In this document: positions 4,225-8,257 of the stretch, piece by piece
How positions within the stretch are numbered: the stretch's first letter is position 1
Layout of the letters: every line of letters begins with the position of its first letter
Translations under genes and position numbers: made by a program
Notes under the pieces: generated by a model
What the model was told of the DNA's origin: nothing
The model's input: the letters and a program-made list of their open reading frames with translations, nothing else
The model's database searches: none
DNA from: Eubacteriales bacterium
GTDB lineage: Bacteria > Bacillota > Clostridia > Saccharofermentanales > DTU023
Assembly (NCBI GenBank): GCA_030537595.1
Contig: JAUNVR010000012.1
Coordinates: 14,835 to 48,204 of the forward strand
Reading direction: 5' to 3'
DNA: 33,370 nucleotides

Positions 4225-5721
4225 TTAATAATGGTAGGTATAGGGGTTTTCCGGCTCTTCGAGTGGCCTCACAGAACTCGAGTTAATCCTCAGATAGAGC
4301 ATCCCATCCGGACCCTCGTAGCGCTCGAACACACCCTCGACTTCAATCCATTGATTCGAGTCCAATTCGACCCCTTCCGGCAGGGTGATTTCAAAACCGC
4401 ACATTCCTGCGTCGTTGCCACAGCAGCCTGGGCCGAAGCGGTATACGACGTAGTGATCTTCAGACCAGATTTTATAACTTTCGAACATTCCGCGAATACG
4501 CACAGTTTTGCCGAGATAGTTCTCGAGATTAGTGTAGATGTCGAGGACCCAGCCCAGGTACATTTTCTCATCGATAAAGAGCTCTTCACCCTCTTTTATC
4601 TCCGGCAGTTTCTGAGGTTCAAAGGTCTGCAGCTCAGGAGCCTCAGTCGGATTTTCGACTAAATCAATCAGCTCATCATAGCTTTGCTTTTGGCCGGAAG
4701 AATCTCCAGCTTGCTCTGCTTCTGGCTTAGCCTTTTGGTCCAGGATTGCCTGCTCGGCCTCCATCTGCCGCCGCAAGCTACTGTCTTCTCTCGCCTTGCA
4801 GGAACTGAGGAGAGGACAGAATAGGGCAGAGCTTAGGCAGACGATTAATAAAATTTTGAGACTACTACCCTTCATAATCACTTTAGTGATCTTTGGCGAT
4901 TTCAGATAGGGCAAAAGCTTCCCCGTCAGGGCAAAGATGATAAAGAAGATTAAATTGACAATCACAATCGAAGCCCCTGAGGGTGTTTTCAGAACGTAGG
5001 AGGCAATAAAACCTAGGGCAAAGGCTAAGACCGAGATAATTGAGGAGGAAATGATTACCGACTTAAAGCTTTTGAAAACTCGCATCGAAGACAGGCCCGG
5101 GAAGATAATCAGCGAAGAAATCAATAAAGCGCCCATCATGCGCATGCCAATCACAATGGTCACCGAGGTCAGGGCTGCCAAGAGCATATTATAAAAACCT
5201 GCTGGGCTCCCTGAAGCACGGGCAAAATTCTCATCAAAGGTGATCGCAAAAAGCCGCTGGTAAAAGAAAATAAAGATTACGATGACTAGGCTAGAAAGTA
5301 GGACTGTCAGTTTCACATCCTCGATTGAGGTCGCCAAGATGGTCCCGAACATGTAGTTACAGACATCAGTAGTCATGCCCCTACCCCAGGACACTGCAAT
5401 GACCCCGATTGCCAGGGCCGAGGAGGAGATCATCGCGAGCGCTGAATCGCCGCGAATACTGGACTTATCCGAGAGCCGCAAGAGTAAAAATGAGGCGAGC
5501 AAAACCAGCGGAATTGAAAAAGTCATCGGGGCCCAACCGACCGCCATAGCAAAGGCCAGGGCTCCGAAACTAACATGACTTAAACCATCACCAATCATCG
5601 CGTAGCGCTTTAAGACCAGGCTGACCCCAAGTAGGGCCGAGCAGAGGGCAATCAAGACGCCGGACACAATCGCCCGAGCCAAAAAGGGGTAGGATAAAAT
5701 CTCGCGAATTAAACTAAACAT
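4225..5721 (-). CDS. znuB: ZnuB-type metal ABC permease with in-frame lipoprotein-like and Cys-rich OB-like C-terminal extension
   Basis: Residues 1-275 are a complete ABC-3 (ZnuB/MntB/AdcB) permease: about eight membrane helices, with the usual GDGLSHVSFGALAFA motif near residues 44-58. Known members end at about this point. Here the frame continues without a stop. Residues 283-308 (MKGSSLKILLIV...LLSSC) look like a lipoprotein signal peptide with Cys308 in a lipobox. An acidic linker (about 310-380) and a domain at about 395-490 follow. That domain contains GKTVRIRGMF, the motif RFGPGCCGNDAGMCGFEI (Cys433, Cys434, Cys441) and WIEVEGVFE, and resembles the C-terminal domain of YcgQ/DUF1980/TIGR03943 proteins. 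ATG 5721 follows AGGAG and overlaps the end of znuC by 8 nt. Whether one long protein or two products are made is open: the internal ATG at 4875 has only a weak ribosome-binding site. Confidence 0.85.
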   Translation of the reverse strand: MFSLIREILSYPFLARAIVSGVLIALCSALLGVSLVLKRYAMIGDGLSHVSFGALAFAMAVGWAPMTFSIPLVLLASFLLLRLSDKSSIRGDSALAMISSSALAIGVIAVSWGRGMTTDVCNYMFGTILATSIEDVKLTVLLSSLVIVIFIFFYQRLFAITFDENFARASGSPAGFYNMLLAALTSVTIVIGMRMMGALLISSLIIFPGLSSMRVFKSFKSVIISSSIISVLAFALGFIASYVLKTPSGASIVIVNLIFFIIFALTGKLLPYLKSPKITKVIMKGSSLKILLIVCLSSALFCPLLSSCKAREDSSLRRQMEAEQAILDQKAKPEAEQAGDSSGQKQSYDELIDLVENPTEAPELQTFEPQKLPEIKEGEELFIDEKMYLGWVLDIYTNLENYLGKTVRIRGMFESYKIWSEDHYVVYRFGPGCCGNDAGMCGFEITLPEGVELDSNQWIEVEGVFERYEGPDGMLYLRINSSSVRPLEEPENPYTYHY

Positions 5722-6430
5722 TGGAAAACTCCTGATCTAGCCCGAGGAAAGACCTGCCCAAGGGACTTTCGGCATAATCTTTTGCGGACCCGAAGAACAA
5801 CTGCTTCGAGCCCAGATGTAAGACCTTGCGCGCATTGTGTAAGACCGGATGCACATCATGCGAAACCATAATAATTGTAATTCCGCTTGCATTGACCTCC
5901 GCCAAAACCCGATAAAAATCGTTGGCCACTAGGGGGTCTAAGCCGGCCAGAGGCTCGTCTAAAAGCAAGAGCTTTTTCGTGGCTAGTAAGGCCCGGGCCA
6001 AAAGCACCCTTTGCTGCTGACCTCCGGAAAGCTCACGGAAAGAACGCTTTGCCAAATCCGAAATCCCGAGCAGCTCCATAGTTTCTGCTGCCCGGCGCTT
6101 ATCTTCACGCTTATAAAAGGGCCGCCAGCCGAGGCTGTTTAGACAGCCAGATTGGACAATTTCTCTAACTGTTGCCGGGAAATCTCGCTGGACCTCGGTC
6201 TGCTGTGGCAGGTAGCCAATTTGCTTTGCACTCAAGTTTGCGCCGTAGCTAATCTTGCCCCGATAAGGAGACTTTAAGCCTAATAAACCCTTAACTAAGG
6301 TCGACTTACCCGAACCATTTTCGCCTAAAATACATAAGTAGTCCCCGCTAGACAGAGCAAAATTCACATCTTCTAGGACTAGATTCGCACCATAGGCGAA
6401 AGCTAAATTATGACATTCTATTAAATTCAC
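5714..6430 (-). CDS. znuC: Zinc/metal ABC transporter ATP-binding protein ZnuC
   Basis: A 238-residue single-domain ABC ATPase: Walker A GENGSGKST (about residues 36-44), signature LSGGQQQR (about 134-141), Walker B LLLLDEPLAGLD and the switch His in MVSHDV. The length and the FPATVREIVQSG region fit the ZnuC/MntA/AdcC group. It lies between znuA and znuB and overlaps znuB by 8 nt, suggesting coupled translation. The start is a GTG at 6430 with only a poor Shine-Dalgarno, while znuB has a good one. A stable hairpin separates it from znuA, so its level may be set lower than that of the binding protein. It acts at the inner face of the membrane. Confidence 0.92.
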   Translation of the reverse strand: MNLIECHNLAFAYGANLVLEDVNFALSSGDYLCILGENGSGKSTLVKGLLGLKSPYRGKISYGANLSAKQIGYLPQQTEVQRDFPATVREIVQSGCLNSLGWRPFYKREDKRRAAETMELLGISDLAKRSFRELSGGQQQRVLLARALLATKKLLLLDEPLAGLDPLVANDFYRVLAEVNASGITIIMVSHDVHPVLHNARKVLHLGSKQLFFGSAKDYAESPLGRSFLGLDQEFSNV

Positions 6431-6564: not shown

Positions 6565-7707
6565 TTAATCATTCAACGCGACCCGCAGATTTTCCAGATT
6601 CTGCCGCATAATATCCAGATAAGTCAGACCTGCTTCGAAGTCTTCTCTGGCAATATTATGTGCGCCGTGGAGCAACATGACCTGAGCTCCGCTCGCATCG
6701 GCAATCGATTCAGCCATCTTTTGGTTCGAGAGTTCGATATGGAAAACTACCGGAATGCCCTCTTCTTTGACTTTTTCAATTAAGAAAACGATGGTTTGCG
6801 GACTGGCATCACCCTCTGTTGAACAACCGGGGAAAGCAGCGTAGTAATCTAGGCCGTAGGCGTCAGTAAAGTAGCGGAAGGGGAAGCGATCGCCCACAAC
6901 AATAGTTTTACGCTTTGCGTTTTTAACTAAGTCTTTAAAATCTTGATCTAACTGCTCCAGCTCTTTAAGGTAAGCGGCAGCATTCTCTTTGTAAAAATCT
7001 TGATTCTCAGGGTCGAGTTCGACTAATGCCTCAGTTAAGGCCTGAACAATTTTAATTGCATTCTTAGGATCGGTCCAAACATGCTCATCTAGCTCATGCT
7101 CATGATGATGGTGGTGTTCATGTTCATGTTCATGTTCAGCATCCTCATCATCGTGGTGATGGTGGCAGCAATCTTCGTCCTCGTGTTCATGCTCGGCATC
7201 CTCATCATCGTGGTGATGGTGGCAGCAGTCCTCGTCCTCGTGGTGGTGATGGTGTTCCATGCCCTCGACAATTTCTTCCTCGACTGTCTCGACTAGGTCG
7301 ACCAGAGCCAGAGTTTTCTTGCCTTCTTCACGAGTTTTCAGTAACTCATCTACCCACTTATCACCATGGCCGCCAACATAGACGAATAAATCGCTTTCAG
7401 AAATCTCGATTAAATCCTTTGGGGTCGGCTCGAAGCTGTGGCTTTCTGCACCGGGGCTAAGTAACATGCTGAGTTCAATTTTATCTCCGCCGATTCTCCT
7501 TAAGAAATCGTACTGCGGAAAAATCGAGGCAATAACCTTCAATTTTGCCCCCGGGGCTGGCTCAGCCTCTGCATCTGCAGTACCGCTGACCTCATTATTG
7601 TTAGCTTCTGCAGCTGGCTTTGACTTGTTCAAATTCTCGCAGCCCGCAACTAGACCTAAGAGCATTAAGACTGTCACGAGTAGAGCTATAAGTTTTGAAT
7701 TTTTCAT
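6565..7707 (-). CDS. znuA: Zinc-binding lipoprotein of the ZnuA family with His/Cys-rich repeat loop
   Basis: A 380-residue solute-binding protein. The N-terminus MKNSKLIALLVTVLMLLGLV-AGC is a lipoprotein signal with lipidated Cys23. The mature protein has the ZnuA/AdcA fold signatures: GAESHSFEPTP (His90) and DEHVWTDPKNA (His209). Between them is an unusually long metal loop (about 151-209) made of His, Asp, Glu and two Cys-Cys pairs. The third classic His motif is replaced by GDRFPFRYF (Asp273), a variant I associate with a clostridial subgroup. A GAAAGGAAAG ribosome-binding site precedes the ATG, 17 nt after zur. It should capture zinc outside the membrane and hand it to ZnuBC. Other first-row metals are not excluded. 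Confidence 0.92.
   Translation of the reverse strand: MKNSKLIALLVTVLMLLGLVAGCENLNKSKPAAEANNNEVSGTADAEAEPAPGAKLKVIASIFPQYDFLRRIGGDKIELSMLLSPGAESHSFEPTPKDLIEISESDLFVYVGGHGDKWVDELLKTREEGKKTLALVDLVETVEEEIVEGMEHHHHHEDEDCCHHHHDDEDAEHEHEDEDCCHHHHDDEDAEHEHEHEHHHHHEHELDEHVWTDPKNAIKIVQALTEALVELDPENQDFYKENAAAYLKELEQLDQDFKDLVKNAKRKTIVVGDRFPFRYFTDAYGLDYYAAFPGCSTEGDASPQTIVFLIEKVKEEGIPVVFHIELSNQKMAESIADASGAQVMLLHGAHNIAREDFEAGLTYLDIMRQNLENLRVALND
7139..7252 (-). repeat. 57-bp tandem repeat coding the ZnuA metal loop
   Basis: A 57-bp unit (7139-7195) is repeated almost exactly at 7196-7252, with divergence towards the far end. In frame it codes the 19-residue unit DEDCCHHHHDDEDAEHEHE, at residues 158-176 and 177-195 of ZnuA. 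Confidence 0.88.
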
Positions 7708-7724: not shown

Positions 7725-8165
7725 TCATACATCCTTGTTCTCCCTCCCATCTGCTTCTGAACATTTCTCGCAGAGTCCATAAAACATTGTTTGCGGCTTC
7801 GAAACCTGGAAATGGTGATCGTGCTCAATATGCTCAATCAGCTCATTCAGGTGACTGCAATCCAGATTTGAACTGCGGCCACAATCCCGACACTGGAGTT
7901 TACCGTAAGGACTTTCCTCAGCACTATCTGCGACATAGCGATAGAGTGCGCCGTTACCATCTGCGGCCGGAATTTTCACCAGGGCATTTTCCGCCTCCAA
8001 TAAGTTCACCGTCCGATAGATTGTTGTTAAACCAACCTTCACCCCTGCCTTTGCCAAGCGCTCGGCAATTTCCTCAACAGTCAAAAACTCCGCCTGCCAA
8101 AGCTTTAAGTGTTTAATAATCTCCGCTCTGGGCTTACTTCTATATCTTTTTTTCTCTCTACGCAT
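7725..8165 (-). CDS. zur: Fur-family metalloregulator, probably Zur
   Basis: A 146-residue Fur-family protein. The winged-helix part (about residues 14-80) includes the recognition region VGLTTIYRTVNLLE. The dimerisation part has the HFQVSKPQTMFYGLCEKC stretch and two Cys pairs, CRDC (Cys92/95) and CEKC (Cys132/135), which form the structural zinc site. A His cluster (EHIEHDHHF) supplies sensing ligands. As first gene of a zinc ABC operon it is most likely the zinc sensor, repressing the operon and itself when zinc is sufficient. A 7-1-7 inverted repeat over its own promoter supports autoregulation. The ATG at 8165 has AAGGAAG close upstream. Fur or PerR identity is less likely from context but not excluded by sequence alone. 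Confidence 0.88.
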   Translation of the reverse strand: MRREKKRYRSKPRAEIIKHLKLWQAEFLTVEEIAERLAKAGVKVGLTTIYRTVNLLEAENALVKIPAADGNGALYRYVADSAEESPYGKLQCRDCGRSSNLDCSHLNELIEHIEHDHHFQVSKPQTMFYGLCEKCSEADGRENKDV

Positions 8166-8242: not shown

Positions 8243-8257
8243 TGAAAACCGTTTTCA
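8243..8257 (-). promoter_or_regulatory. Candidate Zur box (perfect 7-1-7 inverted repeat)
   Basis: TGAAAAC-C-GTTTTCA (plus strand) is an exact 7-1-7 palindrome, the geometry of Fur-family operators. It overlaps the end of the -10 box and the expected start of the zur-znuACB transcript. Confidence 0.65.

Follow-up and report, generated by a model that had tools for sequence, protein, structure and literature searches.

Tandem Cys-Cys-His units in the His-rich loop of a ZnuA-type lipoprotein from an Eubacteriales bacterium

A tandem repeat lies inside the His-rich loop of a ZnuA-type lipoprotein encoded in a 33,370-nucleotide stretch of DNA from an Eubacteriales bacterium (the window, to whose full length all positions refer). 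The repeat consists of two units of 19 residues that are identical at the protein level and are encoded on the minus strand, each bringing a Cys-Cys pair followed by four histidines into the loop. The explanation that we favour, and that we consider probable, is that tandem duplication has turned the recruiting loop of an ordinary cluster A-I zinc-binding protein into a presumptive Cys/His zinc buffer.

The znuA gene and its operon

The znuA gene (6565..7707, minus strand) encodes a zinc-type substrate-binding lipoprotein of 380 aa. Its identity as ZnuA, proposed in the preliminary description, is upheld by the Pfam ZnuA profile (PF01297, E 4.4e-79; 266 bits against a curated cut-off of 29), which is the sole domain match in the protein, and by an AlphaFold model (pLDDT 83.1, pTM 0.76) that presents the two-lobe fold of the family with both lobes at high confidence. 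Among the matches listed (50 of 1000 aligned chains), the model aligned with metal-binding proteins at Z 27.6-31.0 over 253-273 residues, with an rmsd of 1.9-3.3. The best-matching named records share about 42% identity with the protein, and the named NCBIfam models all score below their curated cut-offs (ZnuA 85.9 against 268, AztC 163.1 against 350 and AdcA 147.2 against 700). Domain match and model assign the protein to cluster A-I (ZnuA/AdcA-type), as the zinc-binding lipoprotein of a ZnuABC importer with a predicted role in zinc uptake. Identity as a COG0523 GTPase, considered on account of the CCHHHH unit common to both, was rejected, as the protein has no cobW domain and matches ZnuA only. 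As DNA, the gene is single-copy within its genome.

The operon runs on one strand in the order fur-like gene, znuA, znuC, znuB, with the ATPase and permease genes directly downstream of znuA. Its first gene (7725..8165, minus strand; Pfam FUR, E 2e-16) encodes a Fur-family regulator which, judging from gene context, is possibly Zur. The znuC gene (5714..6430, minus strand) encodes an ABC ATPase (ABC_tran, E 1.3e-30), and znuB (4225..5721, minus strand) a permease with a fused C-terminal DUF1980_C domain (ABC-3, E 4.9e-55; DUF1980_C, E 3.8e-20). Upstream of the fur-like gene, and thus of the operon, an exact-match search located a perfect 7-1-7 palindrome, TGAAAACCGTTTTCA (8243..8257), which we take to be Fur/Zur-box-like and which has no other exact occurrence in the window or the genome. 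When two mismatches were allowed, the genome contained fewer sites than for the reversed control pattern, so that only the exact palindrome is noteworthy.

This gene context bears on which metal the loop might bind. Because Cys-rich ligands favour soft metals, the loop could prefer Cu(I), Cd(II) or another thiophilic metal and act as a metal switch or in detoxification. However, the operon encodes a zinc-type importer together with a Fur-family regulator, and the capture loop of an importer would be a poor site for detoxification, and we regard such a function as extremely unlikely.

Two further observations concern transport genes of this genome. The DUF1980_C part of the znuB ORF bears its own lipobox-like stretch; the fusion also occurs in the same-genus genome G001 (L260) and is absent from the permeases of five other genomes of the family (L257, L258, L259, L262, L263). 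Elsewhere in the window's genome, locus L264 (G000:C33:7000-16000) encodes two further ZnuA paralogs that are distantly related and have ABC genes of their own. One of them carries an inserted domain some 120 residues long, and a free-standing ZinT lies nearby.

The tandem repeat

The whole His/Asp/Glu/Cys-rich loop, modelled with low confidence, covers residues 150-206 (7090..7260, minus strand); it is 57 residues long, includes 24 His codons and precedes the motif of the second His ligand (DEHVW). Within it, Tandem Repeats Finder reported 7127-7242 with a period of 57, 2.0 copies and a 93% match, and the score of 204 is the highest that the program returned in the whole window. Once this result was combined with the codon register, unit 1 corresponds to residues 157-175, EDEDCCHHHHDDEDAEHEH (7183..7239, minus strand), and unit 2 to residues 176-194, with the same sequence again (7126..7182, minus strand). 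A tandem 57-bp repeat had been placed at 7139-7252 in the preliminary description. The repeat is real, but identity between 7139-7195 and 7196-7252 is 88%, compared with 91-93% in register, so that frame was about 13 bases off. The accompanying claim that a duplicated CC-HHHH unit gives the loop four cysteines holds: these are Cys161-Cys162 in unit 1 (codons at 7222..7227, minus strand) and Cys180-Cys181 in unit 2 (7165..7170, minus strand). The ORF has six cysteines in total, the other two being Cys23 in a lipobox-like stretch and Cys295 in the protein core.

Could a low-complexity tract produce such a repeat by chance? When the amino acids of the loop were shuffled 1000 times, self-match runs never exceeded 10 residues and so fell short of 21, and no exact tandem of 19 residues appeared, which rules out a chance repeat. 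The copy number of two is the number as assembled, because the genome is a 35-contig draft.

In codon register, the two units are identical in 52 of 57 bases and in 19 of 19 amino acids. The five differences are all third-position transitions and all synonymous, an outcome with a probability of 0.00003 to 0.004, depending on the transition bias assumed. With five synonymous differences and not one amino-acid change, the copies are no longer fresh and appear to be under constraint at the protein level; the idea that the duplication is recent is weakened accordingly. We argue that the residues of the unit have been preserved over time, with gene conversion between the units as an alternative account of their likeness.

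Loops and metal sites of ZnuA relatives

The loop was compared across 172 distinct ZnuA-like ORFs with a minimum length of 150 residues, duplicates with the same last 120 residues having been removed. They were drawn from part of the matches of an order-level search (188 genomes, with a relative in 134 at an E value of at most 1e-20), from family and genus searches and from named records. The loops of relatives are repeat-like His/Asp/Glu tracts that differ greatly in length, and most have the His/Asp/Glu-rich composition that had been described as usual. Adjacent cysteines were present in the loop of the window protein only (1/172). Cysteines were flagged in the loop in 15 rows. Those of L143 and L158 belong to a ZinT domain nested there, and L039 and L040 represent other paralogs that carry a domain insertion. 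This leaves 11 ORFs: the window protein with four Cys, L048 with two that are separated, and nine with one each. The nearest full-length relative in a quick tree, from genome G010 (L047), is 62% identical and has a 49-residue loop without Cys. In the same-genus genome, znuA is split across two contig ends, both within the loop, and the readable parts of the loop contain no Cys, its middle being absent from the assembly. Conservation of the loop cysteines in relatives, on which the earlier proposal had partly been staked, was thus not found: a CC conserved across genus or family did not appear among the 172 ORFs, the same-genus gene being incomplete at the loop.

These comparisons give some room to neutral drift, in which an expanding low-complexity tract would tolerate metal-liking residues and the Cys-Cys pairs would have no special role. 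The wide variation of relatives' loops in length and sequence, many in one family being Glu-rich with few His, is in its favour, as are the occurrence of CC in one ORF and the Cys-free loop of the nearest full relative. Since the pair was found in one species only, it may be drift in a tolerant loop. But all five differences between the units are synonymous, and tandem units of the same CCHHHH-acid design are also found in unrelated GTPases (see below). On balance we see neutral drift as possible but not likely, and continue to prefer a Cys/His zinc buffer.

Some loops of the comparison set deserve mention in their own right. Several ZnuA loops of one related family are Glu-rich, with hardly any His and a single Cys (L138, L142, L145, L146, L151, L172, L179, L180). 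An entire ZinT domain (PF09223) is nested in the ZnuA loop of L143, L158 and L076 (genomes G115, G110 and G015), whereas in AdcA this domain is C-terminal; the nested ZinT of L076 itself bears a long EDEHAH/EDEHDH repeat array. A search of open-licence papers found nothing on ZinT nested in ZnuA. Genome G005, whose assembly has 6% contamination, has two contigs with near-identical znuA genes (L064, L081), one of which has an additional, clean in-frame loop unit of 12 bp (Asp-His). This difference fits slippage, although two strains or contamination may instead lie behind it. By analogy with the two G005 loop versions, variation in unit number between strains of the window's species is plausible.

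The core metal site also sets the window protein apart from the canonical pattern. After removal of 3 paralogs and 8 short fragments from the 172 ORFs, 161 rows remained for this site, 118 with Cys295 and 43 without. In the window protein, Cys295 is encoded at 6823..6825 and Asp273 at 6889..6891 (both minus strand). Asp273 was present in all 118 Cys-core rows, always followed by Arg274, and His occupied that position in 38 of the other 43. His90 and His209 are present in the window protein and the fourth aligned position is His350, a position mostly occupied by Gln or His across rows; judged by alignment, the protein departs from the canonical His-His-His-Glu/Asp ligand set. By alignment, Cys295 and Asp273 together mark a ZnuA subfamily lacking the usual third His ligand. 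Loop Cys occurred in 11/118 Cys-core rows and 0/43 others (Fisher test, p 0.037), a weak result in that relatedness is ignored, some of the 43 have a gap at column 295 and one, L057, is frame-broken with Asp at 273.

Among solved structures, the top sequence matches were AdcA of Streptococcus pneumoniae (PDB 7jj8, 7jj9) and YcdH of B. subtilis (2o1e), with E 5.6e-44 to 1.1e-40. In the model alignment both have the same fold (Z 28.4-30.1) and, like the window protein, a flexible His-rich loop immediately ahead of the second His ligand. The AdcA loop is unlike it in being 17 residues long (120-136) and without Cys in the aligned part. AdcA coordinates zinc through His63, His140, His204 and Glu279, whereas the third and fourth positions of the window protein align as Asp273 and His350. 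Synechocystis ZnuA and Paracoccus AztC (PDB 1pq4, 5w57), which have long His-rich loops, belong to the same family. A search of open-licence papers found nothing on Cys-Cys loops in zinc-binding proteins. In Synechocystis ZnuA and Paracoccus AztC the loop occupies the same position as in the window protein, and we know of no Cys-Cys repeat in either. According to PMC7858048, cells whose AdcA has lost both its His-rich loop and its ZinT-like domain grow less well and accumulate less zinc when zinc is restricted. Deletion of the AdcA loop alone had no significant effect on growth, a point against our explanation, and the contribution of His-rich loops in zinc-binding proteins is called poorly defined in PMC7858048.

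CCHHHH units beyond ZnuA and a possible zinc buffer

A search for DNA capable of encoding CCHHHH succeeded in 5 of 188 order-level genomes and in 16 of a class-level sample of 391, two sets that overlap; the reversed control gave none among the matches listed. One of the 16 class-level genomes is the window's own. In eight others (G092, G378, G403, G457, G523, G531, G535, G556) the motif is in frame in a COG0523-like protein, the cobW domain (PF02492) being confirmed by Pfam in the six that were scanned and judged by eye in L226 and L230. In G246 it stands at the end of a protein that, judged by eye, resembles a cation-diffusion transporter, in G492 it belongs to a small protein that also has CPAC and CPEC pairs, and in the last five no long recognisable frame contains it. 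Several of the CCHHHH-acid arrays of COG0523 proteins are themselves tandem. The arrays of L217, L218, L084, L225, L220 and L230 vary in unit number, with up to four exact CCHHHH per protein. The likeness to the ZnuA loop thus extends from an almost identical unit (CCHHHHDDEDEEEHGH in L217, CCHHHHDDDDEDEHEHH in L218) to tandem arrangement and variable number, although these proteins are unrelated GTPases (PF02492) and not substrate-binding proteins. In passages of PMC2770081 on His-rich stretches, such stretches are ascribed to about 40% of the COG0523 proteins analysed, and Cys-Cys units are not described there.

How did so similar a unit come to be in two unrelated proteins? One answer is that it was copied by recombination from a COG0523 gene and did not evolve in place, as the close protein likeness of CCHHHHDDEDAEHEHE and CCHHHHDDDEDEHEHE might suggest. 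At the DNA level, however, identity between the window's loop and six COG0523 arrays did not exceed that of synonymously recoded controls, 9 to 69 of 100 of which reach it, in any of the six comparisons. In the window's genome there is no CCHHHH-coding match beyond znuA; the cobW domain gave two matches there, one in an ORF of 223 aa (86.7 bits) and the other weak and partial. Derivation from a COG0523 gene is therefore unsupported by the comparison with the six arrays, and we give it a very small chance; with no sign of transfer in the DNA, convergence is the likeliest origin of the CCHHHH-acid units of the two families. Cys/His-rich tails are also present in the cyanobacterial metal ATPase Bxa1.

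The position of the cysteines raises the question of a thiol switch, in which the Cys pairs would form disulfides upon oxidation and so gate zinc recruitment. All four lie in a segment expected outside the membrane, given the lipobox-like Cys23, and the repeat is probably exposed, because model confidence there is low (pLDDT mostly under 50). Yet adjacent cysteines form strained disulfides, and the units resemble arrays of COG0523 proteins, which are cytosolic; we rate a switch of this kind as very unlikely.

The zinc buffer that we prefer could have arisen and could operate as follows. A single tandem duplication of the 19-residue unit, through slippage or unequal crossing-over within a stretch where repeats were already abundant, would have lengthened the disordered His/acid loop and created two CCHHHH clusters, while a unit of the same type would have arisen separately in COG0523 GTPases. 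Under zinc limitation, and by analogy with AdcA, the loop would act as an external buffer that recruits zinc, which would then be passed to the site in the cleft. Reduced Cys-Cys-His clusters would bind Zn(II) more strongly than a His-only loop, the doubled unit would raise zinc capacity, and an anaerobic life, which we infer from the nearest named relatives, would keep the cysteines reduced. It is also conceivable, though rather unlikely in our estimation, that CCHHHH-acid arrays are a convergent zinc buffer module of the class, tunable through copy number and used both in the extracellular ZnuA loop and in intracellular COG0523 chaperones, with the loop feeding a non-canonical cleft site in which Cys295/Asp273 take the place of the third His. 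Zinc would then be captured by a thiol-based route, unlike the textbook one, which is His-only.

The window encodes a zinc importer of ordinary type apart from its unusual loop, whose Cys version was unseen in the other ZnuA-like ORFs compared. The two identical Cys-Cys-His units, together with the near-identical unit of the GTPases, provide a natural comparison for the study of such loops as tunable zinc buffers, and the same comparison bears on whether thiols matter outside the cell.
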